DNA of 64,000 nt from Rhytidiadelphus loreus (taxonomy: Eukaryota > Streptophyta > Bryopsida > Hypnales > Hylocomiaceae): assembly GCA_947034895.1 (NCBI GenBank), contig OX344762.1, positions 51,129,087 through 51,193,086 on the forward strand. Reading direction: 5' to 3'. Position numbers and translations under genes: made by a program. The stretch's first letter is position 1, and every line of letters starts with the position of its first letter. Shown here one piece after another: positions 15,935-47,685 of the stretch. The notes beneath the pieces are model-generated. The model had not been told where the DNA came from. It saw nothing but the letters and a program-made list of their open reading frames with translations, and did not search any database.

Positions 15935-15959
15935 ATATATATATATATATATATATATA
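15935..15959. repeat. (AT)n microsatellite
   Basis: About 12 consecutive AT dinucleotides ending at 15959. Confidence 0.9.
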
Positions 15960-18172
15960 GGTTAGAAATCCAATAATAGCAAGAGTATAGAATATTTTGG
16001 AATATCTTCTAAAAAGCCTAACCTTGACCAATACACAACAATTTATAGCTAAAATATTTCTATAGACCTTAGTAAATAGATTTTAGATTTTTAGTTTTAG
16101 GATTAAAAAAGATAGAAATTCTAGTTGCTAGCTTGCAAAGTTAAAATTTAAGATGTACCAGAGGAGTCATCCACAATGGAAGAAGGGCATTATGGGGTTG
16201 AAATCATCAGCTAGAAATTCAACATCAAAATTGGTTTACTAAGATTCTTCTCTATGTGAAAAATATCTTGGTTATCAATAGTTAAAAGAGATAATAGAAT
16301 TTCAATCTCCTTCATTGAATGTGCAAAGTAAAAAAATGAGCCTACACATCTTTTATAGGATTACATAAGAGGTTCCATAAAAAAATTCTAAAATTTCTAA
16401 CTTGCAAAAGATTCTCTTTTGGATAGTCAATAATGGCTTCAACTGAAGATGGAAAATTTCTTCAAATTATCCAAGTTGTGGTCTCGGTTGTGGTACAATC
16501 TCACTAAAAATTTGCTTAGCTTTTTTTATGTAGATAACAAGCATCAACAAGTTTCAAGGCATTCTAACATTGATAAGTACCTAAACTATTAGGAATTCCC
16601 GATTTCAACAAAATTGGAAAAAATATTTGTGGAATTGACCACTTGACTAGCGTATCAAAAGCATACAAAGTCAAAACAAGGTCAAATCAAGGTCTTTTAT
16701 TACTCCCACATACCTTCTAGACATAATAGATTAGTTAAATTCTTTAGAAAAGATAACCTCCAATATTTGGATTTTTACTCCACTTCTAATTGAATTTTGT
16801 ACAAGCTTTTTGCATATGTTTAGCAATGGTAAAAAGGGAGGAAGGTCTCTGAAATTAGAAATGACCTTCTTAATCCAATGGCGCAATTCATTGGTGAATT
16901 GAAGTCTTCCTCCCAAAGTTAGAAGTTTGGACCAAGGTAGAAGTAGAAAATCACAAAATTTTAGATTAAAATGCATAGAATTTGGATTACCACTAGTTAA
17001 GAGAAGAGGTGCCCTTACAAAAAAGTATTTAAGTGCAATCTTCTCCCTCTCAAACCACCTTTTTTGTTTAGATGAATGACTTGCGGCCATTTCTTAGTGC
17101 ATTTTGGGTGTTTTCAAAGCAATTTGTACTTCATTGTTGTTATTTTTTAAGCATATTTTGAAAGACATTGGGTTCCATTCAAACCTTGCATTCTCCTTTG
17201 TGTTATCAAGTGTTGTTTCTTGTATTAACTCTTGTACTAACCCTAAAGACAAGCCCCCTGTAATTTGATGATGTTGTTTGGAGGTGCCCTCTAGTCCTTT
17301 GGTTTGAGATTTGACACATTTTTGGTGGAAATCCCTTCTTAAGAATTCCCTTAGAGATTGTAGAATGCATGGTTCTAACAAGTGCAAATATTTTTTTATG
17401 TTTTGAGTGTTTGTACTAATCTACATTAACCTATTCCTTCTTTATTTGGTTTAGCACTTTTTTGGTTTGCCAAAAACACAACAAAGTTTTGACCAGTTAG
17501 CCATTATAAACTAGAGTTTCTAGAGGTTTTCTTGTCCTTATCATTGTAAAGATGTAGCTAAAAAAACCTTGTCATGACAAAGCTTTGAATTATAAATGGA
17601 TAGAAATCTTTAGTTTTTTGTATTAAAACTCCAAATACAATGAAGCTTTGACTTAGAGATGTACGTGTCAAATCTTTAGTTCTTTTTTATAAAACTCCAA
17701 TTACAACAAAGCTTCAAACTTAGGCAAAAATTTGGCATATCCTAAAATCCTTAGTATACAAATTATAGCCTTGTCTCTTTTATTGCAAAAATCAAGAATG
17801 ATTAGCCTTTGTATTTGGATAGCCAGTTCTAGTAATTATTTAGAAATTAAAGCCTAGTTTTAAAAGTCCAAGAAACTAGTGCTTACAATTTAGAGCACTA
17901 GTACTACAAGTTGAACCTTCTAGCTAGTTAAGAATTGACAACTACAAGGCCAAGGTCTTGGAGGTGCATCTCAGCTTGGATATCACAAGATCGAGATAAA
18001 TATCATAGCTAAGTAGTCAGATATCATAGCAAGGTAGTACTAAGGAGTCGGAGTCCAAGCAATGAGAGCTTCAGATCTATCATAGTGAGAGTTCACTATA
18101 AAAATACTAAGTTTTTTTTATGCCTAAGAAAACAAGTCTTCGTATTCAATTTAACATAGAAGATTGCTCGTT
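15960..18172. other. AT-rich spacer between the two satellite-like blocks
   Basis: Short minus-strand frames at 16731-17090 and 17094-17387 have no recognisable domain and lie in low-GC DNA. I do not call them genes. The segment separates two blocks of the same repeat, so it may be an insertion. Confidence 0.45.
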
Positions 18173-18670
18173 GAAGTGACCCATCAATATGTTTCACCAT
18201 CTCCCTTTTGAAATTCAAAATATTCCAAATGCCCATTCCTGGCCACTACCATTCAAGTATTGCAAATGTAAAATATATTACTGTTTTGTACATCATTCTT
18301 CAAATCTGTCTCTTTGAGTCCTCTTCATTTAGTGTTTTGTCTATGACATGTGGAACTTGTCACTATGAATGAAGCATAGAATGTACAAACATAAGTAGGA
18401 TGTAACTATAATTATAAGCAAATATTGATGTGATCCATCAGTATGTTTAACCATCTCCCTTTTGAAATTCAAAATATTTCAAATGCCTATTACCAAATGA
18501 TTTCTACTACTATTCATATACTGCAAAATATATCAATTAGTGCATTCCACATCATTTTTCAAATCTGTCACTATAAGTCCTCTTCACTTTCTGTTTTGTC
18601 TATCAAGCGTGGATGAAACATAGAATGTACAAAATAAGTAGGATGTGACCAAATCCAGTACATATATTTC
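18173..18670. repeat. Tandem repeat of about 254 bp, block 2 (two units)
   Basis: The landmark of block 1 recurs at 18173 and 18427, with the same internal segments in the same order and orientation. It ends raggedly near 18670. Confidence 0.8.
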
Positions 18671-27362: not shown

Positions 27363-27446
27363 GTATACAGTAATAAGTTCAAGTATAGAAGTGCCAATAA
27401 ATAATGTTCAAAACCTCCAAGAATGAAAGGGAGGTAATTAGTTGAA

Positions 27447-27500
27447 CAGGGTTGCTATTCTGTGAGCCTACGCTCGTGAGCTTGTGAGCTTGCGAGCATA
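27447..27500. repeat. Left terminal inverted repeat and hexamer cluster of the giant element
   Basis: Begins CAGGGTTGCTATTCTGTGAG and continues with repeats of the GTGAGC/GCGAGC hexamer, likely transposase-binding subterminal sequence. Confidence 0.75.
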
Positions 27501-28531
27501 CAATTTTTTGGTGTAAAGTTTAGAGTGAGACCTATGACCGTGGCTTTTAAAATAGTACAGAAATGGAATAAAATATTGAAATAATATTCCCATTTTGGCA
27601 ATCCAAATCAATTTTAATCCTAAAAATATATTGTAAGTCCAATTTTGTTGAAGTTCATTATATTTACCTATTAATAAATTTGTATCAAATATCACATATT
27701 TTATATGTGTACTATTTAATTCCACAATTTCCATAATTAGAAACATTCAATTAAGATTCTGAATACTATCAATAAGAAATTCTTTCATTAAATCATACTA
27801 ATTGAAAATATTTGAGAATAGGAAGAAAGGTATAAAAAAAATAGGAGTAGCCAAAATGGTGGTGACATTGATATATTCATTGAATTGGAACCACAAAAAT
27901 TCAAGACAAAATTTTTGAAAGTGTAATGTTTTGTGATCACAGGATACTATCATTGAAGTGTCAAAACAATGACAATATTGAAAAGTTGAAATAAGCATTC
28001 AAAAGAACTAAGAAGTACAAGGTTCATAATATTTTAATTGAAGAAGTATATCCAAATTCAAATTCTACCTTTCAAAAGGCCTAGAAGAATTGCACTGACC
28101 TATAATGGCTACAAAAAGAGTTACGGTGGAAATCAAAAGGTTGACACTAGTTCCTTCTCTCGGCTCCGAGAGGTCCTACAACGATAGACAACATTGATCA
28201 ATCTTCCAAAAAATCAATGTAACAAGGCTCTCTCTATTTCAATCTAAATCCTTGTGAATTAAGTCTAATTTATCCACCAAAAATATTAAGAAGAGGAGGC
28301 TATAGTATCCATAGCATATTTTATTGTACAACAAAAACATCACACAAGAAATTGAAAGTATAGAACAATGCAATGTAGTTGTTTTGCCTTCATTATGAAA
28401 AACTATAAAAAAATCAACAAAAATTAGAAGTTCAATGTAATGAAATAGTAATTGTTTTCCCTTCATCATGAAAATAAATAAAAACAAATGGAAAATTTGA
28501 TCCAACAACTATGCAGTAACTGAAAATAGAA
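27501..28531. other. AT-rich DNA between left terminus and the methyltransferase stop codon
   Basis: No gene. One CTCTCGGCTCCGAGAGG palindrome lies at 28157-28173. Probably 3' UTR and terminal non-coding sequence of the element. Confidence 0.5.
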
Positions 28532-29708
28532 TCACATAGATGAAGAAGACATTGACTGAGAATAATCACTACTATCAGTACAAGAATGGCCCTCATCTAC
28601 TTCTGTAGCTGTCAAATCTAAAAACTGCAACACCTTGGGATGTACATTGGCAATTTTATTCCGTGTAGGAATAAGTTGCCGAGATGCACAATCAACAGCT
28701 AAAGCCTCAGCATACGTCGGTAGAATATATGATTTCTCCGGACTCGGAAAAAATCCTGGTAAGGAGTAGAACGGCCAGTGTATGGCCTCAGTATGAATCA
28801 TGCTACAAAAACAAAATTTAGAGTTAGAAAAACTTAAAGATAGTCTAGTGCTTGAAACTCATGGAAAGCAAAATCAAAACAAAAAACAAAAAAAACTTAC
28901 TTACTGAATCGGGATTTTTTGACGATACATGGAACCACAACATCCTCTGCATCGGGGTCATCTGAGGGCACCGTTACTACTGTAGGTGTGGCAGGAACAA
29001 CCTCAACTGTATGAATGAGAGGGGCAAGCATTGCATCAAAGATGGCCTTATCTTCTTCCAAGGCAATGATGTGCCTGTCTAGAAGCCTACAACTGTGGAT
29101 GGCCGCACCTGAAATATATGCATTGACTTAAAATTAAACCGGATATAAAAAAACATGTACAACATATTCAAAAACTTAGTTCGTTAAAAAAAATGTAGAT
29201 TGTAATATTTACCAGTTGAAGCTGTACAATCTACAACCACGTCACCAGGCATAGATGAAGCTTCAATGAACATCTGCATAAACCGAGGGTCCTTCTCACG
29301 TGCACCTCTCCAAGGAATACCCTCATTCATGGCCATTGTCTCCGCCTTTGTGTAGTTTTGGAGAATGTTGTCACGTGCAATGTCTACTCCAAGTGCCTTC
29401 AACTTTGGGCACGCTTGAAATGTAAACTTCGAAGGTCCAACCTCTGGCAAGTTTCTCACCCATAGTGAGATTCCAAAACGCAATGTCTGTAGAACAAGGC
29501 TAGAGAATGTCAATAGAATACTTTAGAAATTACAAGAGAATTTATATAAACACTACCAGAAGAAAACAGTCCAAATGAAGACATATTCAACAGAAAATGT
29601 GTTGGTTTTCTCTGTGGGTTAGGAACACTTGGTTCGGACTCCTTATTAACACATTTTCTGCTGATTTTCTCTTGGATCGAACACAATTAAAAATAAAAAA
29701 TAAAAATC

Positions 29709-29885
29709 AATTTTTTTTTGGCTGCCCGAAATTTCCGGGCAGGAAAAAATTACTATTTATGGAAACTGCCCGCTGCCCGGAATTTACGGGCAGCCTCGCC
29801 ATTAGGCCATTGCCGCCATGGGGGGTCGAACTTGAGACCTCCCGTGTACAAGCCCCATGAACTAACCACCACATCACCCATTGCA
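29709..29885 (-). repeat. tRNA-derived SINE
   Basis: On the minus strand a box-A-like GTGGTGGTTAGTTCATGG (reverse complement of 29855-29872) precedes a box-B-like GTTCGACCCCC (29821-29832 region), with normal tRNA-like spacing. The body follows with two GCTGCCCG...CGGGCAGC palindromes (29720-29742 and 29772-29794) and ends in an A-run (minus strand) near 29709-29720. This fits a tRNA-type SINE with its tail. It is not a folded tRNA gene. Confidence 0.6.
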
Positions 29886-29945
29886 ATTATATGTCTATTT
29901 AGAAATAAAAAATATACTTAACCATTTAAAATTCTATGTTTCTTA

Positions 29946-30300
29946 GGTCAGCTGACTTTGGTAGCCGTTTAGGCATAGAAAATTAATTTTTTTGAAAAAA
30001 CTTTGAACTAAGAAAAGTTTCTAAATGAAGCTAAGATTCATCTCCAAAAATCCGTTTGGGATTTCAATTCTCCAATCAAAAGTTATGGAAAAAAATCAGA
30101 GAGGGTGTTTGAAAATGTAGAAAAAAATGTCCATTTGAACCCCCCTCTGATGTTTTGTCCATAACTTTTGATTTGAGGATTGAAATATCAAACGGTTTTT
30201 TGGAGATGAAACTCAGCTTCATCTAGCAACTTTTCTTAGTTTGAAGTTTCTTGAAAAAAGTTATTTTACTATGCCGAAATGACTATTGAAATCTGCTGAA
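29946..30300. repeat. Long inverted repeat, arms of about 160 bp
   Basis: The sequence from about 29946 to 30115 returns in reverse complement at about 30130-30300. Shared markers include AACTAAGAAAAGTT, GATGAAGCT, TTCATCTCCAAAAA, CCGTTTG, ATCAAAAGTTATGGA and CAGAG. The spacer is about 20 nt. Transcription through this intron would give a long near-perfect hairpin RNA, a natural substrate for Dicer-like enzymes. Confidence 0.75.
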
Positions 30301-30349
30301 ATTAAAGAAACACCAAATTCCAAAGTTTTTCATTTTTTTCATTTTTGAG

Positions 30350-31020
30350 TTGTTTTTTGGGCACTTGGTAGTGTTATTTTTCATTTTTGAGTTGTTTTAT
30401 GGGCACTTGGGAGTGCTAATTTCCATTTTTTAGTTGATTTTTGGGCACTTGGGAGTGCTGATTTCCATTTTTGAGTTGTTTTTTGGGCACTTGGGAGTGC
30501 TGATTTCCATTTTTGAGTTGTTTTTTGGGCACTTGGGAGTGCAGATTTGCTTTTTTGAGTTGTTTTTTGGGCACTTGGGAGTGCTGATTTGCTTTTTTGA
30601 GTTGTTTTTAGGGCACTTGGGAGTGCTGATTTCCATTTTTGAGTTGATTTTTGGGCACTTGGGAGTGCTGATTTGCTTTTTTGAGTTGTTTTTTGGGCAT
30701 TGGGAGTGCTGATTTCCATTTTTGAGTTGATTTTTGGGCACTTAGAAGTGCTGTTTTGCATTTTTTAGTCGTTTTTTGGGTACTTGGGAGTGCTGTTTTG
30801 CTTTTTTGAGTTGTTTTTTGGGGGCACTTGGGAGTGCTGTTGTGGATTTTTGAGTTGTTTTTTGGGCACTTGGGAGTGCTGTTTTGCATTTTTGAGTTGT
30901 TTTTTGGGCACTTGGGAGTGCTGTTTTCCATTTTTGAGTTGTTTTCTAGGCACTTGGGAGTGCTGTTTTGCATTTTTGAGTCGTTTTTTGGTGCTATTTT
31001 GCATTTCTGAGTTGTTTTTA
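30350..31020. repeat. 42-bp minisatellite, about 16 copies
   Basis: The motif GGGCACTTGGGAGTGCTG recurs with a 42-bp period (GCACTTGG at 30361, 30403, 30445, 30487, 30529 and onward). The rest of the unit is ATTTCCATTTTTGAGTTGTTTTT. Because 42 is a multiple of three, open frames run through on both strands and spell repeating 14-residue peptides; these are artefacts of the period. CACTTGGGAGTG is itself a short palindrome. Confidence 0.9.
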
Positions 31021-34000
31021 AGGCATTTGTAGGTGGTCTTTTTAAATTTTTTGAGTGTTTTTTTGGTGTTTTAAGGTGATGTTTGCAAGTTTTCTAGTAT
31101 TATTATGGTATTTCAAAAGATTCCAAAAAGATTCCAAAAGATTCCAAAATTCTAAAAAATGTAACAAAATTATGTTGGTTTTTATTTAACCAACACAAAA
31201 CGTGTTAATGCGGTCTAAAAAATTGTGTTTGATGAGGAAAAATCATTTTCATGTTGATTCCAGCAGAAATTTGTTGATTTTGTCTTGGTTTTCACTACTT
31301 CTCTAGTAGTGAAAGTTGAAAAACTTGTAATAATTTAAATTAAACATACCGTGAAAGAACAATCCAATGGTGACGTCAAGTGTAAGCGGTTCATCCCCCA
31401 CCATTCCTTCCGTAGTTTAAATGCATATGGGTCTGCATATCCAAAAATGTCTGCTTTGGCCTGAGCCCTATACGGATGGATAATAATCAATGCCCCATCA
31501 TCTTGCAAATGTCCATCAGCAAACTCAAAAAGAGACTGAAGCCAAGTATCAGATCGTTGATTCCACTTTGGAATGGTAGTAGGAGGCTTGGAAACATCAG
31601 GTACTGGTAATCCTTCTGGCATGTCAGCAATGATAAGATCTACACGTGGCTTGTCACTTTGAACCCCTTTAAAGAATCGATCTTTATCCGCCATGTGCTG
31701 CAACAAATACAAATGTCAAAATAAAATAAGAAATAAATAAACTTGAGAAAGAGGAAGCATTTAAGAGGTAATTGAACGCACCTTTTCCATGAATTTGACA
31801 ATGTCATGGTATAACTGAGGTAAGGGATCACCGAGGACAACCTCCAAAGACGAGTTGCAAATGAACTCATCAATGGTGATGTCACTATCATTGATCACAT
31901 CAATGACAGTGGGGCCATGTACTAACCCATCTTCCGTCAATACTAGATGCTCAGATCCACGTTTTGTGCCTCTTGAACTGGATGTCTGGAGTTGAGATCC
32001 CTGATCCACTGCAGATGACACAGGAATGGGGTGCTTTGAATTCTTCCCCGAATTCTTTTCAGTAGGCGTTGCCTTCCCTTTCTCAGCATTTTGTGCAATC
32101 TTCCTTGAAACTCTTTGGAGAGCCTTGTCCACGGCCTCATAATTCTTAATGGCAATCCTTTTATCTGCGTCGTCTCTCCTCTTCACAGCCTTTGCCCTAG
32201 TATCTTCATCCAAGTCAGCAAACTCCTCGTACTCTTGAACAACTTCTTGCGAATCGATGGACTGCTTCAAGCAGTCTTCAGGAAGAGGAGTGAACTCTGG
32301 TGGGCAATCAAGGTACCATGCACCTGATTTCAAGTGCGCACTTGTCCACCACTTCAACTGAGAGGGAGAGAACATGCAATGCTCAGTAGACACGTCCAAC
32401 CAAGTACCAAGAAAAGGTGGCAAATCACGTTTTGCAATTGCTCCTTTTGGAAGTAATTCATACTTGAAGTACCTACAAGCATGTGAAATAATTTTAGAGA
32501 TAAGGAAACAATGAAGAATGAGAAGAAAATGACATGAATTTAAACTTATAAATCAACACTTCAAAAGAAGAGTTACCTAAATAAAACGCGCTTAACCACA
32601 AGGTCCGAGCCTTTGTGCTTTATGAAAGAATCTGACTTCCTGAAGACATCATGTCCTCTGAAGTTTGCAAGAAAAGCATGATCCCAGAGGCGAATTCTCC
32701 AAGCCTCAATGTATTCTGATAGGTCCTCTGGTTCTTGGGGAGAGTCCATGTCCAAGACTAGATTATCCTTCTTCACGATAGTATCAAACATATCTGTGGC
32801 AGCATCTTCAATCTAGACATAAATAGATACATTCTGGTTAGATTAAAGCGTTGATCACTAAGTCAACACTTCAAAATCTAATCTCAATTGTAAATAAAAA
32901 TTATATATACATAGCAAAATCCTCAAAATTTAATTAGAATAACTCACCCCTGAATACCAACATGCCTTTACTAAAAAGGACTTCAAATCCGATTCTCCAA
33001 CAGGCTTCAATGGAAACCGACGTGCCTCTCTAGTCTGGACGGAAGAGTTCCACCAACGTAGCCACTTCACTTTGTGCTCAGTTTTTACATTGCAAGTAGC
33101 AATCATCTGCAACTTTTCGAGAGTCATCTCTGGCACAGCATTCGTACTCCAATGGCGCTCAATCTTCACACAATAAAGTCATTTATCAAAATGATTGCAA
33201 TATTGAAAACCAACAAAATACAAAAATCCATTGTAAAGATGTAGTCACCTCATCAAGCCATTCCTTCCCAAGGTTAGGATTAGCCACAGCAGTGAGTTTT
33301 CCCAATTTCTTTGTTAGATGATTTGTCTTCTCTTTGCTGCCTTGTCTCATGGCAGCCAAAACTCCATCTTCTGATTGATCCTCGACTACTGTCTCTTCTT
33401 TATACAACCTCACTGCGGTATCAGCTGCGGCAGCAATCTCGTACTATAGGAAATAATTCAAACAAAGAAGTCAGAAATGACATAGGTCCAAGTAAAAAAA
33501 TATAGAGAATTAATCGTTTGAGGTCAGTTGAAACTTAAACGATAGATGAATGCTGTAAAAACCTCCGTGGACATACTGTACCAAGACTTCCTTAAATTCT
33601 GAGTGCACTGAGACATCTCGGAGGGGCTCAAGTGCTCAGAGAACTTATCCAACGTCATGACTCCATACTTACGCACCCTATATAGGGTGTGAACCAAGCT
33701 TGTTTTGATAAAAGAATTCTCAGTATGCCTGTAAAGCAAGAAATATTGATTTGTTAAAATACATGAAATCAATAAACAAGAGAATGAAATGACATTAACA
33801 AATGGAGTCAAGGATAGACATACTTGTTAATGTCATGCATGATATGCATGACAACACCAATCCGTCCTTTGGTCTCTAATAAAATAGAGTCAACAGAAAC
33901 ATGCCAATCTCGGTCGGCGGCATGGTGGCGAGAAATGTAGGCTGACCAGGCCAGAAGTCGATGGTTCCCATCACAAACAAAAAACTTGGAATTCTGAAGA

Positions 34001-34602
34001 TGCTTCAATTAAGGGGTAGCATTCAAATGTGCATTGAATATATCGTTCTCCTCAATCCAGAGAGGTCCCCATGCAACTTTATCACTGTCAGTCACAACCT
34101 CTTCCTCCCCTTGTTCATTAGTAACTGAAACATAAAAAACAGATGACCCATCTCTGTATCCATGTACATATTCTTGCTCTAGCCTCGTCAAGTCACACTG
34201 CAATGCGGGACGAACCATAGGCATTTGCACAAGACGACACAATGGAATGCGGAGACGAGAAACTGCATGAGGCTTCATCCTTAAACTGGAGATTGAAGCC
34301 ACCGAATTGACTTTCTGAAACCTACGAAGGGCATCTTCAGAGGTGAATTCATCCGTTGCCTCTTCATCATCAGAACCTCCATCATCAATGTCATCAGTTG
34401 TCCCAATAGCCGGCTGATCGGAGGCATGGGATTCAACCATGCCCGATATCGTAACAACCTCTTGTGCAGGAGGTGCTTATAGCTGAACCTACATAAAAGA
34501 AGCATATAAATCATGATTGATTAGGCAACTATAAAAGCAAGGAAAATATAATTCTATACTAACTGAGAAATTTATCATCTATTCACTCCACACTTAATCC
34601 AG

Positions 34603-36625
34603 CCTCGGCGCCGAGACGTACAAGAGATTATCTTGTATTTGATATATCAATGCAAACATAGGACTTCTCCTAAATATAACCAAACCGGAAATTCCAATAA
34701 ATGATACAAACTACTAAATAACAATCTGGAACATTATCCAATAGATGTCAAACATACTATGAAGAACATGTCCTCTCGGTGCCGAGAGGACATATTTGAA
34801 GGCCAGAACTGGATCAAGTACATAAACTATTAGGCTCAATTTGAAATTTAAATAGGTATAATTTGGGGTCCAGCCTTGCTCTCGGCGCCGAGAGGAAGGA
34901 ATTGAGCCTGCCCACTTGATCACCCTAATCTCCACATTAACCTTATAATATAACTAAGGGCCGCCTGATATCCAACATATGCAAAACATATGGACATTAA
35001 GGACTAGCACTTTTAGTCTGAGATCGAAACAACATTGGGATATATGTAGTGGCTGTGCCAAAAAGAATTTCGTTTTCCTCCTAAACCCCCCAAATTACCT
35101 TAGAATATCAACTAACAAAACATCATAGAATGATGCTATCTATAGAAGTCCACATATATATGTAGCTCTCGGCGCCGAGAGGTGTCTATGAATGTGTTAG
35201 GTTTTGCTAGAAAACAACAAGCATGAAATGAAGTTCAAGAATATTAGAAATATACAAGAAAAATAATATGTAAAGTATCCCTCATGAATCATGTACATGA
35301 TCACAAGTTTAAGGGTCCGCGTTCCTCTCGGCCCCGAGAGGTACAATTTATCCTAGAAAATTTGTCCATGTTATCAAAATCCTTCTATTGACTTGTTTTA
35401 GTTCATCTTAATTCTGCTTAGAATCTAAAAATCCAAGTTTTATGATATTTAATTTGTAGGTCTTACAAAATTATGGATTTACGGCTATCTAATCAATTGT
35501 ATCCATCAAATGTGGATGGTCCAGTTCATCCTCTCGGGGCCGAGAGGTGTCTTTTAGTAGAATACTACTTATCAAAAAAAGGTTTTCATGCACATAGAAA
35601 ACAATTATTTGCAGTATGTCAACTAGAGATAGACCCTATCCATTGGCCGAACACCATGAAATTTAGACATGATTTTGCCTTAAAGTCAACATGGCTTGGG
35701 TCTTTCCTTGCTCTCGGCGCCTAGAGGTCCACTTCAGTCGGCAACAATGAATGGACTTGATGATCGATTTGAAATAATTCTAGGTTGAATTTAGTGGATG
35801 TTGATTGTTTACCTATTAATTAGCAAATTAGCTTCAAATGGAATCTAAACTAATTCTTGCTTACATCATTAATTATACAAATATGAGAGCATATGATTAG
35901 GTCAAATTTTAATCATCATAGTGATCATGTAAGAATAGTAAGATGGACATGTCAATGATGTTAAAGATTGATTTTCATAAATTATTAATCTAATACCAAC
36001 TTGTAACTTTCTGTTGGAGCTCTACATCAAGGTGAGATCGTAATTTATTTCATCTAAAATCAGTCTAAGGAAAGAGCACTCTAATCAAATATTGAATGGT
36101 CTCAAAATACATCTGCCTCGAAATACATATTCGGTTGTCTGGTGTTCCCATTCCAGACCAGCCCTCGGCGCCGAGAGGGAGAATTCCGGCATCCAAACTG
36201 AAGTCGTCATCACAGGGAGGAGAGAACGGGAGACTGATTTCAAGGCTCTACACGTTCGCCTCAGAGCTGAGAGGAAGGATGGCAGCCCGCGAGTGTGATG
36301 TCATCACAAGGAGGAGAGAACGGGAGACTGATTTCAAGGCTCCACACGTTCGCCTCGGAGCCGAGAGGAAGGATGGCAGCCCGCGAGTGTGATGTCATCA
36401 CAAGGAGGAGAGAACGGGAGACTGATTTCAAGGCTCCACACGTTCGCCTCGGAGCCGAGAGGAAGGAAGGCAGCCCGCAAGTGTGATGGTCGGGGTTAAC
36501 AAAATAACTAGTCCTGTTACCTTAGTTCTGGTTTCCTGAAGCCACAATACGATTTCCGATCAAGCATGATTTGAACTATTTGCACGATGCCTGAGGTCAC
36601 CCACCCCTCTGTGCCGAGAAGCTGC
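34603..36625. repeat. Palindrome array, CTCTCGGNNCCGAGAG, inside the methyltransferase's long intron
   Basis: Copies lie at 34603-34618, 34772-34789, 34879-34895, 35166-35182, 35324-35341, 35530-35547, 35711-35727, 36162-36178, 36259-36274, 36353-36368, 36447-36462 and about 36606-36622, mostly with 7-8 bp perfect arms around a 2-bp variable centre (GC, TG, CC, GG, AG). The background is AT-rich and unrelated between copies, so the palindrome itself appears conserved. Other copies occur at 28157, 43064 and 43173. A dyad-symmetric protein-binding site is the simplest reading. Confidence 0.85.
36205..36488. repeat. 94-bp tandem repeat, three copies
   Basis: GCGAGTGTGATG begins at 36289 and 36383 and a variant at 36477, period 94 bp. 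Each unit contains GGAGGAGAGAACGGGAGACT and one CCTCGGAGCCGAGAGG palindrome (the first copy has CCTCAGAGCTGAGAGG: two compensating changes keep the dyad). Frames across it are artefacts. Confidence 0.85.
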
Positions 36626-36734
36626 AGGTAGTCATGTTCTCCGGTAATATATCAATTGTTCGATTCACAATGGAGAGAACAAAACCTAACGTCTATAGAT
36701 TTCAATCCGAGCTTATTTTGAAACTGGAATATGG

Positions 36735-37255
36735 AAGTCTGACTGCGATGCAAGTCCGACTACGATGCAAGTCTGACTGCGATGCAAGTCCGACTGCGAG
36801 CTACTCTGGTTACCAAATTTTTTTAAACATACTCGTCCATCTGCTCTTGTTCTTCGAAGCTCAGATGTTCCATTTTGAGCTGCACCAGACGTCGACAGTC
36901 TCGAAACACGGAGGACAGTGCGACAAGCGCAAAACACGGAGGATGCAAGCCTGACTGCGAGCTACTGTGGATACCGAATATTTTAAAAAAACTCGTCCAC
37001 CTTCCATCTGCTCTTGTTCAATGAAGCTCCGATGGGCCAGTTCGAGCTGCCCTGGACGTCGACAGGCTGCAGACACTCCTAAGGATCCAACGCTCGAAAC
37101 ACTAAGGACAGTGCGACGAATTGAAATCTAACTTCTATAGATTTCAGACGGAGCCAACAGCATGCAAGTTTGACTGCGAGCTTCATCGTGAATACCTGAA
37201 CCGTACATCTATACCGGATCTTTGATGCTCTGATGGGCCAGGTCGAGCAGCCGTA
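36735..37255. repeat. 18-bp tandem units followed by about 190-bp imperfect repeats
   Basis: GACTGCGATGCAAGTCC-type 18-bp units repeat about four times at 36738-36800. A longer unit (CTCGTCCA...CATCTGCTCTTGTTC, GACGTCGACAG, CGAAACAC...GGACAGTGCGACAA) then recurs around 36830-36930, 36990-37110 and more weakly to 37255. Intronic, non-coding. Confidence 0.65.
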
Positions 37256-37677
37256 GATGTCGGAGGAATACAAACAGTCTTGCAGGAGTCGAAGATCTCG
37301 GACCACGGAGGAGACAGAGATGTCTATGAATCAAATATCTAATTGTTGCCCTCGGAGATGAGAAGAAGCTAACTTGACCGGAAGCTGGATCAGCAGCTCC
37401 CAAAAATTTCAGATCCAGTCACCGAAACCCTAGATTAGAATTTCTGCTCTGTTGGCTTGTACCGCCTAAATCTCTCTCCGACTAGAAGACAACTACAGTT
37501 AAGTGTAGTTTGAGCAAAACTTACCTCGTTCGGCAGTTGTGCAGGAGTCGAAGAATCGTTGATGCCGGTTTCGTCATCTCGAGCTCTGTCCTCGCTTCCG
37601 CTCCCGTCGCCGTCGCCTCCCCGTCCCATGGTGGTGGCACTTCGAGTCCCAGGTCTCCTCCCCATCTCAATTGCAGC

Positions 37678-39073
37678 CTAGAAAAATATTTAAAAAAATT
37701 CAACCCTTACATCAAGAGATCGATAGAGCCCTCACACGAAATTCACGAATCAACCGTCATAGCAAGAAAACGAACCAACCTTTAGAACAACAAATTTAGG
37801 GTTACCCGGATTGGAGTTCAGATTTTCAGAACTAAACTATAGCACCCAGTATTGGCACTTACTGTCTTCAGAACCATTTGGGATTTCTCAAAAAATCTAC
37901 AAGAAGCCCTTGCTTACAAGGTCAAAGACGAAGGCTGACGTTTTGCGACTTGCGATAAAAAGACCCCGTATCCTCCCTAAGTTTTGGGATTTAGAACGGA
38001 CAAGCTCTTCAACGGAGCATCCTTCGGCATGTACGTTATTTGGCTATCATAGCAGCTTAGATAGTATACTCGAATACAGAGCATATTTAGAGCTGATTCT
38101 TCTTTATAATATGTTTTGTGGACATAATCCATTTTAGTTAAGATTCCTCATCATTGAAAATTTCTTGTTTGTTTTTTAATCATTTTTCAAAGAAAGAAAA
38201 ATAAATACTAAATGTAGCGTAAGTGGTATTCTAGTTTTCTTTGCATTTATTTAGAATTTATGAATTTTTAATGATTTGGGGTAGTGCTACTTGTTTGTGG
38301 TTTAGGATATAAGCCCATACATGCATATATTTGCAACTTATATAGAGTTGTGTAGAACTCACAAGCCATGACTGTCTACTCCAATACCTTTACATTCTTT
38401 TCTTCATTAATTTCATTCCTAATGTGGTCCACGCAAGGATTACCTCATCTCTATTTTCTAGTTAATAATAGGGGAGATGAAACAATGAAGAGAACTTGTA
38501 ATTACTTTTTAAATGTATACTAATTGTACATTGAATAACGCAAAATTTTACTTCCAAAATAGACATATTACGTATATTGAAAAATGAGAATTTCCATTAA
38601 TCAAGTGAAAATTGTTCGTACATTGAACAAATCTTAATTTTCTTTGTCAATTTGACTCTCTTGGTATGTTGAAGAAACCTAAATTTCTCTTTAAATGTGC
38701 ACTACTATAACATTGAAGACAAGTCTAATTTCGGTCAATGCCATGATTAATAATAGAAACAATTTCTTCAACCCTCCTAGAGTGGATAATTATCAATAGA
38801 AGCTCTGTACTAATTATGTGATCGGTTCCTAGTTTCGGCTTGATAATCAACACAATTACACATTCGTAAAGTACTTCCCATTCCCTCTAATGTACGCGTA
38901 GTAGTAAAACATAGAACCCTACATTGTAATAGGGACTTCATGAATGAATTTTGTTGTGCTGTACTTGTTTGCGTAGGTAAATGAAGTGCATTCCAAAGGC
39001 CCTAATTTAACAATTTCAAATAGAACAAACACAATGAAGACCAAAATCGGTGTGTATGAATAGGTTTACTTAC
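37678..39073. other. Inferred intron 1 of the methyltransferase gene
   Basis: AT-rich, no coding frame of note. Acceptor TTTTTCTAG before 37677 and donor GTAAGT after 39074 (minus strand) are both canonical. If the first exon is wrong, this is simply 5' flank. Confidence 0.4.
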
Positions 39074-39367
39074 AAAAGAATTCAATGCTCTTCCAAGGCT
39101 GCACACTCTACGCTTATCTTCCTCCACCCAATTGAGCTTGGCAACAATCACTTTCTGAACATCCTCCACTTTGATATCTTCTATTTCTCGTAGGTCACGA
39201 GTGCGTCCTAGGAATGATGCACTCCTATCTGATGAATTACTGAGTGCTCTCGTTCGAGACCGCTGTAGCTCCTTTCGAGAAGAGAATAATAGTTTCTTCT
39301 TCTTCTTCCTCTTTTTCTTCTCTCTACATTGAAAACTACCTTCAAATTCGCACATAGCCGAAAGCAT

Positions 39368-40772
39368 GAGACTAATGCTACATATTGCAATATGGCTCTG
39401 AGGAAAGTAGCTCCTTCCAACAACTACCAATGTTACTTATATGCAAATGTTGTTTTCGTTACAGAGTCGTGCACAACTAAACCCTACCCCTCCAAAGTTC
39501 AATATCTCTACTACAAAAACACTGATTGCAAGGCTTCTGGTTGAATTGATGTTTCACTCTACTAATTTATACCATACCATCAAAACCAAAATAAACAAGT
39601 ACTACCCCTTGTATACTTGTAGTATTAGTAAGTGAAATTTAATGTGGCTACGTACAAGAATTATGAATTCAAAAATATTTTCTCTTGGTTCATATCTCAA
39701 TGTACTCATAGCAATGATCAATTGCCATAAATTAAAACTGAGAATGTAGTGCACATTTTTGGAAACACTGGTAACGGACCCTATGTATAAATCAAATAAA
39801 ATCTTCACAACTCTATTGTATAAATGCGCATCTTCATGAAATGTACGCTATAATAAGATATTAAACGGCCATGACGTGGTCCTAAAATGGAGATGAGATA
39901 GACTTTTAAAGTTTTAATGGATCTAGGATAAAGCGGAGGCAACTGAATGTGTGTCCTATTTTACTTCAATGGGGTAATGTGCATGGTTCAAGCATCCCTT
40001 CTGCTACATTAATAAATAAATTGGTAGATTGGCATCTTGGTTGGCATTGATGATTTTGAAATTGGAATATGGAAAGCCCCATATTTTATTTTGGACCATT
40101 CCAAATCTACAAATTGATTTGACACAAGTATAATGGGCATTATGGGTACTTACTGGTTACTTATTGTTAGTCTCCAATTATTAGATTATCCGTATATCTT
40201 TACATGGCGCTTGTATGTTCACTTTGCCAGACCTATTGTCAGGAATCGGTGCATACATCCAAGATCTTAGAAAGTACATAACTAATTCCCTATTGTTTGG
40301 AAAGTGCTAAAACCAACTTTCATACATGCCACATCCATTTTTTTTTTTCAAATAAAAATAATTCCCTCTACAGAGTCCTTGTAGTAGTCAGAGTAGACTT
40401 AAAAGGGGCGTAGTTCAAGTATACTATCTTAAACAAACCCCGTATCTTCTCAATTGTGATATGGTCTTTGAATTATGTATTTTTCTCTTTTATGAGCTAC
40501 GTAACATTAATTAGTCACTTAAGTCCCCATCCACCTCAATAAAGATTTGGGTCGCCATTTCAAATACTTAGAAATTGGATCCATTTATAGTACTACTTTC
40601 TAATAAGTAATGACGTACCTACGGCCCTAGATCTGTCTTTATTTTATTTATAGGACAATCCCATGCCCTTATATTTCCAACCTTTTAACCCCTTCAGTCA
40701 TTATCCTTTGTGTTTTATGGAGAGGGGCTTTATATTTCTTTGATTTCAAGTGGTTTTGTGGTTTAGAGGTCA
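39368..40772. promoter_or_regulatory. Shared upstream region of the two divergent transposon genes
   Basis: About 1.4 kb between the inferred methyltransferase start (minus) and the transposase start (plus). It is AT-rich, and a TATA-like CTTTATATTTC lies about 40 bp before the transposase ATG at 40773. No CTCTCGG palindrome occurs within it. A bidirectional promoter is inferred from gene arrangement only. Confidence 0.4.
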
Positions 40773-43700
40773 ATGGCCTCCATTCGAGTAGATGGCCATG
40801 AAATTCCTCTAGTCCTCCCTCTTGGAGAAGGTGGTTTTGCTATCGTATCTTCACACCTCCTTCATGTTCGATTTGGCTTTGTCCAATCTAGCATATATGT
40901 TGAGGAAGAAATCATATCCGAGTCTGGCCAGTTGAAGGAGTCTATACATATTCAGAAGTTAGTACTTGATGATGGTCATGTTTGGCACCTTCATCTCGGT
41001 CGATATAGAGCTTACGGATTGCCCTATCTCATGATGGGTACCTCCAATGATATCTTACCTCGACAGTCAGACTATTCTACGGTGGATATGCCGCTTCGAC
41101 ACCAGGATGTTACAAACTCTACGGACCGTGATCGCATCACAGTTACCAGTACTCCTGCTCCACATGTTCGTGTGAAGGTAGAAGTTTTAGATCGTATCAT
41201 AGATATATCTAGCGAGTCAGAAGGAGAGTCTCCTAGTCAACTAAATTTACAAGCAACACTTCCTCATAGACTTCCAGACAATGTCCTCAAGACGACTTCT
41301 ACTCAATATAGCACGCCTTCCACTAGTCCTGCTCTGTCTGCTTTCTCACGTCCACCAACTTATCCAAGTTGTACAACCACAATTAGTGTCGTTGCTTGTC
41401 TTCAAAACCTAGCATCTATTCGTGGTTCTAGGAATGAAGTTGCTGCTTTAGACTACGATTCAATTATACACCAGAAAGTGGAGTACCTTCCTTCTGACTT
41501 CAATGGAAACGTTGTATTTGAGTTGCCTTCCCTTCGTGCTTCATCCTCAACAACTGCTGCTCGGAACCTCCAGGGCATGGATAAACGTTTTGATGGTCAT
41601 GCATGGTGTCGTACCATGACATCTAATATTAACAACCAAGATGGTCTGAAGTTTAGAAAATCCTCTTGTGCAAGCCATCTAGTATGTAACAATTCGAACT
41701 GTGACTACTTCACACGATCATCAAAGCGTAATGAGACTGAGTGGTGTGGTTATACTCCTGTCCCATTTTATGTTGGAGCAACCCCTCCAAAGGATTCCAC
41801 TCTTCTTTGCAAGATATGCAAAATTCCACCCCATTGCACTAGTATCTGTGATGCTAGAATATACTATGTTTTTAGTGATACTGCCCTCATGACCAGAGCA
41901 TGCACTCATTTAGGAAGCCACATGCATCCTGTTGCTTCCGGAACATGCAGAGAGTGTGTAGACACTATCACCGATCTAATCGCAGATGAGGTTTCTAAAA
42001 CCCCCACTGCCACTAACTTTGCCATCGCCCTTGCAGCTAGTAAGCAGTTTTTGGACAACTACCTCATACACAATGGTGATGGACCTAAGGATATTTTGCG
42101 GGGAAAGTCACTTGAGGATGTGATGGACAGATTCCAAATACTAAGTTCCCCTAACATCCGTAATACTATATCTTCATTTCGTAGCACTGGCAAAAGTGGG
42201 GTCATAGATAGCATTATGAATATGAAACGTAATTTAAAGTTTGAATACATTCATGATAGTGTTTTTCCTGGACAAGGAAAGGAGAAGGTTTACTTGTTCA
42301 AAATGTTGGTGGAAGGACCTGGTAGTGGAGTAGACTTGGTGAAACGCATGCAAACTGGAGGCGATCTAGAGAATGCTTGGCTCATGTTTGACCACGTGAA
42401 ACGTGTAAGAGATTGGACAACCATGGCTTGCCATGTGTATGACACAGGATGCAGAAAGGTCATGACAATTGCCGTTTGTGACATGCAATCTGAAGATACC
42501 AAAGTCCAGTGCATCATGTGGAGGTTACTGAATGATGTTATGAAACGAAATGGTGTTGAGAATCCAAATTTCAGAGGCTTCATGGCAGATAGTGCACAAG
42601 CGAATTGGAATGTTGTTCGCATTGTATACGGCACTGGGAATTCCAAAGAGCAGATGGTGAATCGCGAGTGAACGTGTCTCCTGCATTGGAGTACTTCATT
42701 GCACCGACATACACAAAAGCTCATTAAACCGGATATGCAACACCAACATACTCGTCTATGTAAGCAATACAAAGACTCAAAGACTATGGAGGAAGCTGAG
42801 ACACGATACTTGGCCATTCGATCTTGGTGGCTATCGTCTGGGGCAGCCTCCGAAGATGCTATGCGTGAACTAGAGTTGTGGCTCGCTTTTTGGCACTTCC
42901 GATATCGCCAATGGGGAGGTTTTATGCAAATGGTAAGTTCACTCCTATTATTTTAGTTTCTGAACCTCTTATGCAGTTATCCTTTGAATTTGAAATACAT
43001 TTCTTTGTTTTGCAATAATTACTATAGAGAGATTTTGAGATCAAACTACTGAGGGGGTGACTTACCTCTCGGGGCCGAGAGGTAACTTCACTGCCTACGG
43101 ATGAGATTAAAAAATATTGTACTTTTTCAGACTTACAGAAATTTTGGGATCAAACTATAGATGGTATGATTTACCTCTCGGGGCCAAGAGGTGCCTTCAT
43201 AGCATGTTGAAGAGATCCTCCATTTTGATGCTTGTTGAAGCCCACATAGTTGACACTGTAAAGACTTTCATAAAGTGCATTGTAGGTCTAACTATAGTTT
43301 TCCTGTTGCAGGGACTAAGTGTTGAGGAAATGGCAGACATGCCATCATGCAACTTATCCGAAACAATCCACAACAAATGGTTACAGCAATCAGGCAATCG
43401 AGGTAATGATTTGTTTGCCGCCACTTCTGATGATTGCATTCGAGCGTTCATGCAAATGACAAATTATCGAGCATTCCTGAAAGGTAGAACATCAAGGTCA
43501 AGGCCATCTAAAGAGGAGTTGAAACTAAGAGGCGCCAGACGCAGCGGTGACCCGAAGAAAATTGCTGAGGCCTTGAATGTCCTTCCCGGAGCAGTTGATG
43601 CTGCAACACGTGTTCCACACTTAGAGGGCGAAGAAGTGTTCGGCAGTAGTAAGCGCAAGCTTGACCTTCCCATTGGATCAGATGGTGACTCCCATAGACC

Positions 43701-44709
43701 AGATAAGGTCAATTTTTCTCAACCGCGAGTCATGACCCGATCTATCCACGTGCCTATCGAGGCCTCAAATCAAGTCAACACATCCAATAACTTGGAGAAC
43801 ATAGTACATGTGACAACTGCACTAGAGAGTGATTGCGACATTATGCAATGGCATATTGCAAGACTATCCCACAAATCCAGTTGCAAATGTCATGCCCAAC
43901 AGCGTGGATCGAACATCCGTTGCATTGCAAAAATTGCAAAGGGATCTAAAGGCACTCCAGCTCCAACGTATCGTGGTAGAAAGAAACAATGGGGTGGAAA
44001 TAAGGAGATCATGACAGATTTTTGGTTTTGTGCAGATGATATTCACCGATGTGTTCGAGGTTCTAAGCGTCCTTGGGTAATTGACTGGCCTCAATTACCA
44101 GACGTGTGGCCTATACTTACGGGCACTAGTTTGACTCGCCATGAAATACTTTTATTGCAAGATGCTGGTTTTCAACTTCAAGATCGTCCGCCTATGTCAC
44201 CTCGGCGATTATTCACGATGTCCAATGTTTTTGAGGCAGTCCTTTATGATCAGCCTACCCCTGTACATGCTAACACCTATCCAACAACTCGAAGGAGCAA
44301 GCCTATTAGACGCATTGCAAATGCTCCTACTACAGAGCATCGCAATAAGTAAGAAAGTGCTGGCAACGTCAAAGGAACAATCTTAAGGGTTACAATGCTC
44401 CCCTTTCCTGGACTTGGGGCCATAATCTCCCTTCAATCTGGAATAGAGCCCACACACAAAGTTTATCAAATCACACTTGGTATGTACTCAGAATGCACTT
44501 GTCCAGATTTTGTAGACATGGCTGTCTCAGCAATTGGAGGACGCCACCAATATGTTCATTGCAAACATCTTTATTACTTATTTCGATACTTCTGCAAAAT
44601 GGATGTGGTTGAAGACAAGTTCATACATTCTCCAAGCTTTAGTTTCAATGAAGTGAAGCGCCTCCTCATCAAGGCTGGTATCATGATGGTTCCAAACGAG
44701 GGTCTCTAA
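40773..44709 (+). pseudogene. Mutator-like transposase with SWIM zinc finger (two in-frame stops)
   Basis: Two exons (40773-42932 and 43312-44709) join in phase after a GTAAGT donor and TTGCAG acceptor, giving 1,186 codons. Residues about 300-390 form Cys/His clusters (HLVCNNSNCDYF, LCKICKIPPHCTSICDARIY, RACTHLGSHMHPV), a probable zinc-binding module. The catalytic region follows: HVYDTGCRKVMTIAVCDMQ (candidate first Asp about 557) and FRGFMADSAQANW (second Asp about 606), then MADMPSCNLSETIHNKWL with a candidate Glu. The C-terminus has a SWIM finger, CTCPDF...HCKHL (Cys 1115, Cys 1117, Cys 1137, His 1139), typical of MULE transposases. TGA at 42669-42671 (from CGA) and TAA at 44350-44352 (from CAA) interrupt an otherwise intact frame, so the first product would be 632 residues. 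The intron holds two CTCTCGGGGCC-type palindromes. Confidence 0.82.
43064..43192. repeat. Two CTCTCGG palindromes in the transposase intron
   Basis: ACCTCTCGGGGCCGAGAGGT at 43064-43083 and a copy with one change in an arm (CCAAGAGGT) at 43173-43192. The surrounding 50-60 bp are also similar (GATTTTGAGATCAAACTA / ATTTTGGGATCAAACTA), so this is a duplicated unit of about 109 bp. Confidence 0.85.
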
Positions 44710-45110
44710 GATACCTAGACTAAGATTTTAGAATCTGCTTAGAATCTGTGACTTTGACTCTTTGAAGCTTTTGCCTCATCTTTGTCATCTACCTACAAGA
44801 GTAAAAATTTCCCTTTGACCAAATATTGTAATTTGATGGAATTTTGTATCCACTTTTATTTCTATCCTTGTTCATATTTAACATCAAATTAGTTCTTCAT
44901 CTACACAATGTTTACTTCCAATTTTATAGATAATATTCAAAATACCATTTGTAATACAAATAGGACCTGTCCACGGTAATAGGTCCAAGGAAATAGGTCT
45001 ATGGAAGTAGGTCCTAAAATTTACAAGCAATAGTAAAATTTGCCCAAATTTTGTTCTAAAGTAAATTTTTTCTTTAAAATTTTCAGTTTTTTATCCCTTT
45101 TGTAAATCCC

Positions 45111-45185
45111 GAAGCTCACTGCTCACATAATCCCTGCTCACTGCTCACAGGCTCATGCTTGCACGCTTACAGAATAGCACCGCTG
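45111..45185. repeat. Right terminal inverted repeat and hexamer cluster of the giant element
   Basis: Contains several GCTCACTGCTCAC hexamer repeats and ends ACAGAATAGCACCGCTG, the inverted match to the left end. The flanking ATTAGTTGAA duplication starts at 45186. Confidence 0.75.
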
Positions 45186-45223
45186 ATTAGTTGAAGAAGT
45201 TAGGAAATAATCATGATTTCACT

Positions 45224-47685
45224 CAGGGGTGCTATTTTGTGAGCCTTGGAGCGGGAGCCCAAGACCCATGAGCTTGTGAGCCTCCTATTTTAGAATTTTG
45301 GGGGGGGGGACTTTTTGGATTAGGACGTATTACCATGTATTAGGATGAGCGTGTTTTGAAGGCTGATCTTTAAAAAAATTATGGAAATAGAAGATTCTTG
45401 ATAACAAAATACAACAAGGAATATCATATATATCAAGAGATTCTTTGAAAGGTCAGGGGTTTGGAACTCTCAAAAAAATTCAAAATTCTTTTTAAGAAAT
45501 TATTCTATTATTTTTATTAATATTATTATTTCACAACTCCATCACCCCCTAGAAAACCCTCTTGATATCTAATGGTCCCTTGGATTTGAAGCTCTCAAAA
45601 TTTTTATTTTTATTTTTTCAAATTTTTATTTCATGACTTTGTCACATCTAGAAACCCCTCTCGGTACTGAGAGGTCCCTTGGGGATTTCAAAATGTGGAA
45701 CTCAAAAAATTAAAAAATAATTTTTTTTTCAATTTTTTTCCTAACTTCATTACCTCTACAAACTTATCTTGGTACCGAATGAACTATTAGAAGCTTTCAG
45801 ATTTGACACTCTCAAAAAAAAATTTAAAATAATAAAAAAAAATATATAAAATAATTAATTTTTCTGCAACTTTGGCACTCCCAATACTCCTTTTGGTATC
45901 GAGATATCTTTTGCATGTGTTAGGGTTTGGGACTCTCAAATTAAATAATAATAATAATAATAATAATAATTGATTTTATTTTTGCTTGTTGAAAGTCCCA
46001 AATCCCAAACTCTCGAAAGTTGCAAAAAAATTAAAAAATTAAAAAAAAGGTGTTGATTTGTTTTTGTTTTGTTTTTTGTAAAAATCCCAAACTCCAAACC
46101 CCACAAGGCATCTCTCTATATTGAGAGGGTTTTTTTTAAATTACAAAGTTGAATTTAAAAAATAAATAATTTTTTTAAAATTTTAAAATTTTGGTTAGAA
46201 GTCTCAAACTCCAAACACTACTAGAGGTCTCTATACCGAGAGGGATTTTGGAGGGTAACAAAATCGCGACAATTTTATTTTTTAAAACAAAAAAAACACT
46301 CATTTGGGGTTGAAAGTTCCAAACCTCAAACCCTGTCAAGGGTCTCTCGGTACCCAAGAAACCCCTTGCGAAGTTTGGAGATTGGAAATCTCAGGAAAAA
46401 ATAATAAAAAAAAAAGATATTTCTTAAAATTATTGAAAATTATTGAATTTCTTTTGCGACTTTGTCAACCTCTAAAACCCTCTCGGTACAGAGAGACCCT
46501 TGGCAGAACGGCAAGGTTTGGAGTTTTGGAGACCCCTGGCTGGATTTGGGAGTTTAAGACTTTCAACTATAAAATAAAATAAAATTAATAAAATAAAATA
46601 TTCAATTTTTTTTTTGTGATTTTGTCATCTCAAAACCCCCTTCTCAGTAACGAGAGCCCCCTAACAAGGTTTGGGGTTTGGAACTTCCAATTTTTTTTAA
46701 AATTAAATTCTTTTTAAGGAAAAATCTTTTTCTCTTAACTTTTTCTTTCTGGGACTTTGTCACCCCAAGAAACCCTTCTTGGTACAAAGAGACCTCTTGT
46801 GGGGTTGAAAATTTAGGACTCTCAAAAAGAAATTTAACTAAAATAAAAAAATAAAAAATAAAAAATAAAAGTATTTTCTTATTGTATTTTTTCTACAACT
46901 TAATCACCCCAAGATATCCCTTTCAATATCAAAAAATCCCTTGCGGGTTTTTGGGTTTGAGACTCTTAAAAAAAAATAGTTAAAACATTTTACTTTTATT
47001 TATTTTATGTAATCCCTTAAAATCCCATTTCGTTACCAAAGGACCCCTTATGGAATCTAGAGTTTTGTACTTTCAAAATGAAAAATGAAAAAAAATCTAT
47101 TATTTGTTTGTTTTCACAACTTCACCATCTCAAGAATCCTCTTGTAGATTTTGGGGTAGGGGACTTTGAAAACACTTTCTTTTTTTTAATTTTCAAATTT
47201 TCTTTTGAGTGTGTGAATGTGTGTTACAACTCCATCACCCCCCAAAAAACCTCTAGATACTAAGAAGTCCCTTTGGGGATTTGGAGGGTAAGACATTCTA
47301 AAAATTTCCTCGTTCTTACGAGATGGTGTTTACTACATGCGCCCTCTATCAATTAATCAAAATATTTGTTTTCCCTTGGAATTTTTCAAAAGCTTGATCA
47401 TGAACAAACATTTTTGCAAAAAGAACAAAAATGGGCCTCAAGGTGGATTCAAGTTGTCGTTTGTCAACGTGCCTAGCCAAGCACAGTGCACATGCCAGCA
47501 AGGCCCCATGGTCATAGGTCCACGGTCATAGGAATAAAAATAAAAATAAAAATTTTGAAATGTCCTCATTTTTTCTTTGTTGGCTTCAAAAATTTCAAGT
47601 TTTTTTTCAGTTGATGCTCTGGGCTTACAAAATATACGCTCACAACTCCTATTCATGCTTTTAGGCTTACAAACTAGCGTCGTTG
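45224..47685. mobile_element. 2.46-kb non-autonomous relative of the giant element, filled with palindrome-bearing repeats
   Basis: TGATTTCACT flanks both sides (45214-45223 and 47686-47695). The left end CAGGGGTGCTATTTTGTGAG and the right end in reverse complement, CAACGACGCTAGTTTGTAAG, agree at most positions and match the giant's ends. GTGAGC-type hexamers follow. The interior (about 45540-47280) is some 14 diverged units of roughly 110-150 bp, each with a degenerate CTCTCGGTACCGAGAG dyad, then CCCTTG, a GGGTTTGGGACTCTCAAA-like segment, an A/T run, and CAACTTTGTCACC. Non-coding; presumably mobilised by the giant's transposase. Confidence 0.75.

Follow-up and report, generated by a model that had tools for sequence, protein, structure and literature searches.

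A two-gene DNA transposon of the moss Rhytidiadelphus loreus with a fused methyltransferase-like gene, a divergent transposase gene and internal palindromes

In Arabidopsis, VANDAL elements encode VANC, an anti-silencing protein whose targets are often tandem repeats that vary between relatives, according to the portion of PMC5735166 consulted. LINE (long interspersed nuclear element) and DIRS retroelements of Symbiodinium are described with DNA methyltransferases (DNMTs), and DIRS elements with Dam-like adenine methyltransferases are described too; DNMT-encoding DNA transposons of marine viruses find mention in the same source (PMC5890265, in part). Charophyte elements with their own methyltransferases are reported to be on record as well. 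Bacterial-type amino-methyltransferases of the eukaryotic nucleus include N4CMT of bdelloids (PMC8885841) and MpDN4MT1a/b of Marchantia (PMC8566409). Here we describe a locus of the moss Rhytidiadelphus loreus, contained in a 64,000-nt stretch of contig OX344762.1 (hereafter the window; all coordinates refer to it). At this locus, a gene that joins a half with the motif DGNHR to a methyltransferase-like half (the fused gene) lies in one DNA transposon together with a divergently oriented transposase gene, and palindromes recur between the two.

The arrangement of palindromes and fused protein resembles that of VANDAL and VANC, as far as PMC5735166 describes the latter: in both, a transposon-encoded accessory protein occurs with motifs that are often tandem and variable between related elements. 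The moss accessory protein differs in being methyltransferase-derived; the two are likened by motif layout, and the loss of silencing is VANC's. With the retroelement methyltransferases, the moss gene shares its placement in a eukaryotic mobile element, as a DNA methyltransferase of that element's own, and mostly purifying selection; the enzyme classes are different, and the consulted text of PMC5890265 describes neither a DGNHR fusion nor palindromes. The moss gene is not a retroelement methyltransferase of those kinds. N4CMT and MpDN4MT1a/b are, by their descriptions, set apart as host genes; N4CMT has the catalytic motif SPPY, and the Marchantia enzyme is said to be without additional terminal domains (PMC8885841, in part). 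Judged by titles and abstracts, no publication in a search that left subscription literature mostly outside was recognised as an account of the moss element, and the parts consulted of PMC12344493 and PMC12695648 hold nothing on it.

The transposon occupies 27447–45185 (no strand assigned) and measures ∼16 kb without the single insertion nested in it. The original prediction had centered on 28532–39367, which falls inside the element, and the true borders are wider. From the 407-Mb plant genome, eight sister copies, whose transposase exon 1 is 97–98% identical to that of the window, were compared with their flanks. The borders are common to the window and seven sisters, with 96.8–99.3% DNA identity over long blocks; the eighth sister matched at the right border and over a portion of the element. 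In the window, the element is flanked by identical 10-bp target-site duplications at 27437–27446 (left) and 45186–45195 (right). The duplication is found in 7/7 sisters with both ends fetched, exact in four and with one mismatch in three. The terminal inverted repeats are imperfect. The left repeat (27447–27467, plus strand) starts CAGGGTTGC and is followed by subterminal GTGAGC repeats, and the right repeat (45165–45185, minus strand) starts CAGCGGTGC. Because the left and right ends differ in this way in the window, in seven sisters and in four shorter derivatives (see below), each end may have a function of its own. Within the window element, GTGAGC or its reverse complement GCTCAC occurs three times in the first 200 bp, four times in the last 200 bp and nowhere in the interior. 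Genome-wide, the terminal pattern (up to two mismatches) was found 1125 times, versus 0 for the reversed control, and copies of the element were found on all five large contigs.

Across dozens of copies, the two divergent genes co-occur. For 43 or more of the 70 transposase places listed, a listed match to the DGNHR or methyltransferase part lies no more than 35 kb away in this divergent arrangement; random placement, repeated 200 times, averaged 0.4 such places and never exceeded 2. These counts are lower bounds, as only listed places were used, normally one row per copy: 71 rows gave the 70 transposase places (one copy lay in two pieces), 40 places had the DGNHR part, and at least 114 methyltransferase places were chosen by hand among the matches listed. 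The geometry was divergent in 49 of 53 close pairs. Of the 27 transposase places without a listed partner, the flank was checked for three, and the fused gene was present in all three.

The fused gene is also maintained. In the window copy, both genes are interrupted, each by two in-frame stops. Stop-free copies do exist: the fused gene is open over ten exons in 3/7 full-length sisters, and both genes are open as modelled in 2/7, although in one of these the aligned transposase shows two small gaps. Ratios of nonsynonymous to synonymous substitution rates (dN/dS), calculated for pairs with at least 50 shared codons and dS between 0.1 and 1.6, were 0.10–0.14 for the DGNHR exon (9 pairs), 0.05–0.29 for the exon with methyltransferase motif IV (8 pairs) and 0.09–0.23 for the exon with motif I (10 pairs). 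These data show that the fused gene is under purifying selection. The claim of the original prediction that the gene is mobile and travels with a transposase is upheld by the shared borders and by the partner found at 43 or more of the 70 places.

On the minus strand, the fused gene was modelled as ten exons from 34440 to 28533, with in-phase GT-AG introns and 1073 codons. The first modelled exon (33824–34440) contains KFFVCDGNHRLLAW, with the DGNHR motif that we take to be of ParB/sulfiredoxin type. Exons 2–6 lie at 33563–33728, 33249–33443, 32948–33163, 32577–32812 and 31782–32472. Exon 7 (31350–31697) encodes IADMPEG, with motif IV (DMPEG); exon 8 (29213–29486) encodes GDVVVDCTASTG, with motif X (PWRGAREK) and motif I (VVDCTASTG); exon 9 (28901–29108) encodes RHIIALEED, the acidic motif II; and the last exon (28533–28802) ends the gene. 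All peptides that had been quoted beforehand are located in modelled exons, on the minus strand and in the expected order. An insertion at 29551–31311, in intron 7, is missing from the sisters that cover that place and is not part of the element; it has CACTA...TAGTG ends, a 42-bp minisatellite and a likely 3-bp duplication (AAA), and resembles what we take, from its superfamily ends, to be a non-autonomous CACTA element.

In the window copy, codon 144 of the fused gene is an in-frame stop, and another precedes it upstream of 34440, still within the first exon. In sister copies, the acceptor of this exon is near 34488. Given this second stop and this acceptor, at least one further 5' exon is expected. 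Three upstream frames were compared between the window and the eight sisters. The candidates at 37212–37418 and 39211–39423 had 10 silent versus 5 replacement changes, and the frame at 39005–39436 had 3 versus 28; by this comparison, no convincing exon was found between 34488 and 39367. Of the "about 12 exons" first proposed, ten are thus modelled and at least one more is expected, and the rest of that count was not confirmed.

The best external test of the gene model came from another moss. Protein M758_1G295400 of Ceratodon purpureus (1147 amino acids), an independent annotation, aligned with 85% of the query, at an identity of 30% (E 2.2e-120). Because the alignment extends over this length, the methyltransferase and N-terminal parts belong to one gene. 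The original prediction of a single gene, spliced, in a plant and with one half a permuted amino-methyltransferase, is borne out. A search from M758_1G295400 reached a second Ceratodon protein, KC19_7G101700 (661 amino acids). The former has the same architecture as the moss fused protein, and the latter has the middle and methyltransferase parts; they differ from it in motif IV, and the database entries read 'hypothetical protein' or 'DNA methylase domain'. No relatives outside Ceratodon were found in two protein searches (7992 and 6033 candidates scored), and none was found in viral contigs or prokaryote genomes by pattern-based scans. Two phage records matched the fused protein at its methyltransferase end only. 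Within the R. loreus genome, the gene recurs beyond chance: a search with the Ceratodon protein gave 88 matches from 40 scored candidates, and one with the methyltransferase part gave 304 from 149.

In the C-terminal half, the motifs run in the order IV (DMPE), X (PWRGAREK), I (DCTASTG) and acidic, the order of a permuted amino-methyltransferase (motif names as we understand them). The spliced protein and 17 further aligned copies share this order, IV followed by X and I and then II. A profile search for the methylase came close: the window part scored 25.1 bits against PF01555 (E 2e-5), short of the cut-off of 26.7, and the Ceratodon relative scored 30.4 bits versus that cut-off, over profile positions 2–217 of 221. 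A profile match to two haloarchaeal virus methyltransferases, run without decoys, had a probability of 79% and covered motifs X, I and II. Judged by these alignments, and through the Ceratodon relatives in particular, the fused gene is shown to descend from an amino-methyltransferase.

A second feature of the element is a palindrome, CTCGGNGCCGAG, that is repeated between the genes. The window contains 36 strand-matches with up to two mismatches, versus 1.9 expected. These represent 20 sites, 16 in the element and four outside, the latter all with two mismatches; all 14 window sites with at most one mismatch are inside the element. Thirteen of the element's 16 sites are between the genes, one (28159–28170) is 3' of the fused gene, and two (43068 and 43177, spanning 43068–43188) are in the transposase intron. 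Twelve of the inter-gene sites, spanning 34604–36618, are at 34604, 34775, 34881, 35168, 35327, 35533, 35713, 36164, 36260 (two mismatches), 36354, 36448 and 36607, and a weak one with two mismatches is at 37351–37362. These palindromes are a different class of repeat from GTGAGC, which the window element has only in the terminal 200 bp at either end. Exact palindromes gave 3043 strand-matches genome-wide, versus 49 for the reversed control.

Each of the eight sisters has 12–14 palindrome sites with at most one mismatch. Between 36206 and 36488 of the window, a 94-bp tandem unit is present three times with one palindrome per unit, one of them weak. Differing site counts and inter-gene lengths suggest that the number of these units varies between sister copies. 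Among other copies, 11 loci include a DGNHR exon together with its flank, and sites were counted at eight of them (leaving out L001, L006 and L008), a set that includes close copies of one another. All eight loci had sites, 2–17 each and 64 in total, with the core TCGGNGCCGA intact in 61/64. First-order random sequence for seven of these loci gave a mean of 0 to 0.2 sites and a maximum of 1. Most of the sites lie on tandem units that vary in length, and the palindrome itself varies at its outermost base. When five of the inter-gene regions were compared with that of the window, four gave no alignment and one gave a single 46-bp match.

Palindromes are also kept in derivatives devoid of genes. 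Four such derivatives were chosen from short end pairs among the matches listed, before the genome-wide palindrome listing had been seen. Their ends are 1.1–1.6 kb apart, with no stop-to-stop frame longer than 105 codons, and they share the common ends and ∼350 bp of the right side at 68–74% identity. The three derivatives with both flanks have a 10-bp duplication, exact in two and with a mismatch in one. Two internal palindrome sites (at most one mismatch) are present in each of the four. Among the matches listed, two further short end pairs, C1:14387502-14389070 and C1:1385066-1386207, also hold exact palindromes. Palindromes are thus kept both between the genes and in coding-free derivatives, and these, like the element borders, go beyond what had been predicted for this DNA.

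These observations led us to a model, in which our confidence is evenly balanced, of a two-gene plant DNA transposon whose fused protein binds the palindromes and marks or shields the element. The transposase would act at the ends, through the terminal inverted repeats and the GTGAGC motifs next to them, and the fused protein would bind the internal palindromes via its N-terminal or middle part. We infer this pairing of proteins and sites as the simplest one. The S-adenosylmethionine (SAM)-binding domain, as a modified methyltransferase, would then mark or occupy the inter-gene control region, such that both divergent genes and the coding-free derivatives would stay competent to move despite host silencing. 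By its sequence, the protein might methylate, only bind SAM or only shield DNA. A more specific version, which we regard as possible though doubtful, is a self-marking transposon, in which TCGGNGCCGA would serve as a parS-like address in autonomous copies and derivatives, and the base mark would be an unusual protective or licensing one, such as N4-methylcytosine (4mC), N6-methyladenine (6mA) or a DxPE-linked chemistry.

Several observations weigh against the model of a fused protein that binds the palindromes and marks the element. Motif IV reads DxPE in 27 and NxPE in one of 28 readable copies, namely that of the window, those of seven sisters, three flank copies and 17 others (the motif IV exon of the eighth sister lies outside the fetched stretch). 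The catalytic form is (D/N/S)PP(Y/F/W); here, the fourth residue, normally aromatic, is glutamate. The ADMPEG peptide first described as motif IV-like is in place, and the canonical catalytic form is absent from every readable copy. Motif I is divergent. CpG observed/expected is 0.60 inside the element versus 0.56 outside, and with the ratio about equal, there is no sign of extra decay of the 5-methylcytosine (5mC) type. Four of the 53 close pairs have other geometries. The ParB identity of the N-terminal half is suggestive, resting on one short motif. Finally, the palindromes could be read by the transposase or by a host factor, and no methyltransferase match was found within 3 kb either side of two further palindrome arrays that we examined.

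Motif IV is constrained, yet not in the known catalytic form, and altered chemistry and lost catalysis would both be possible. With this non-canonical motif, neither writing of 6mA or 4mC nor normal catalysis by the fused protein can be assumed. A first alternative, which we hold tentatively, is that the methyltransferase domain is catalytically dead and that the protein is a DNA-binding repressor, anti-silencing factor or transposition co-factor, perhaps still binding SAM. In favour of this reading are the DxPE or NxPE found in 28/28 readable copies, versus DTPF and DQPY in the Ceratodon relatives, and the divergent motif I, in a gene that is nevertheless under strong purifying selection. Low dN/dS in the exons for motif IV and motifs X/I would, however, be odd for a ligand-free domain.

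Rather unlikely, in our estimate, is that the palindromes are sites for the transposase or a host factor and that the methyltransferase has its target at another place, on the element or in the genome. The two further arrays speak for this possibility: both have a distant transposase relative (42–50% identity) within 3 kb on one side, one of these matches reaching the edge of the fetched stretch, and only a transposase was seen at that range. Co-occurrence cannot tell which protein reads the palindrome, since both genes travel together. Against transposase or host sites, the ends already have another repeat class, GTGAGC, confined to the terminal 200 bp, and the palindromes are internal in 4/4 derivatives. 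The likelihoods that we attach to the proposed model and to these two alternatives overlap in part.

That the fused gene is a host gene caught once as a passenger, with no function for the element, is very improbable: Mutator-like elements (MULEs) do tend to pick up host gene fragments (PMC6446971, in part), but dozens of copies of differing identity, with one geometry and under purifying selection, contradict this. Contamination or prokaryotic sequence, brought to mind by the prokaryotic-type motifs and by ParB-methyltransferase fusions in haloarchaeal viruses, can be dismissed almost entirely in view of the spliced exons, the copies on all five large contigs, the plant LEAFY (PF01698) in the same assembly, which identifies the genome as that of a plant, and the two protein searches, whose relatives all come from the moss Ceratodon.

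Evidence on the N-terminal half is mixed. DGNHR is present in 21/22 aligned sequences and DGNHH in one, a GxHR motif that follows a hydrophobic strand. This motif agrees with the ParB assignment originally proposed. Family profiles do not recognise it: six members searched for the N-terminal half had no ParB match in Pfam, PHROGs or NCBIfam, and its profile had no credible sequence match in the PDB. In a comparison of a 9-sequence profile with 12 phage ParB-like proteins, the score was 25.4 (probability 11%, 45 columns), versus 19.8 for the best decoy. With 22 sequences, the score was 26.5 (probability 14%, 13 columns), and the best of 200 shuffled decoys, at 25.7, was barely below it. The match thus narrows, with the larger set, to 13 residues around DGNHR. 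Structure predictions with one and with two sequences both had a predicted local distance difference test (pLDDT) score of 35. Haloarchaeal phiH YcdA and HRTV-28 gp71 have a ParB-type domain (GEHR) ahead of a permuted methyltransferase; they differ in their length (∼400 amino acids), in their canonical DPPY and DPFxGSG motifs and in having no large middle region. Since such viral fusions exist, the ParB analogy is a fair one.

The transposase gene, on the plus strand, has two exons. Exon 1 (40773–42932) has one in-frame stop in the window and none in 5/7 full-length sisters. Exon 2 (43312–44707), with one premature in-frame stop, encodes a C-terminal CxC...CxH segment that is presumably SWIM-like; this segment had no Pfam match. 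The transposase was originally called a MULE. The 10-bp duplication, seen in the window, 7/7 sisters and 3/3 derivatives with both flanks, is within the 8–11 bp range given for MULEs (PMC6446971, in part). PF10551, by contrast, was found at 30 genome places and at none of the 70 listed transposase places (the 29 on large contigs were rechecked), and 16 transposase homologues included no MULE match. A profile comparison with six MULEs of the same genome aligned the D...CxxH segments at a probability of 3.6%, with a score of 24.35 versus a maximum of 23.95 for 100 decoys. We consider the MULE label suggestive on these alignments, and the name provisional.

Other repeats were noted in the window. 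A direct repeat at 7637–7911, 20 kb from its counterpart in the left part of the element (27870–28119) and ∼71% identical to it, is possibly a decayed relative of the element. Immediately right of the element, a cluster of short direct and inverted repeats (45533–47558), perhaps another mobile element, holds palindrome-like sites at 45660 and 46482 with two mismatches each. Within 14591–18665, a 246-bp tandem array (14695–15687) is accompanied by a related block (18171–18665).

DNA methyltransferases carried by retroelements and, as PMC5890265 mentions, by DNA transposons of marine viruses, as well as VANDAL anti-silencing with cognate motifs, have been on record before, as far as the consulted parts of these sources tell. 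In the present family of plant DNA transposons, a protein of bacterial type, derived from a methyltransferase, occurs together with a palindromic address that is retained even in coding-free derivatives. It is now directly testable which protein reads the palindromes and whether non-5mC marks are written by a mobile element in a plant nucleus. As far as its sequence suggests, the element may come with a system by which its DNA is recognised and perhaps marked.

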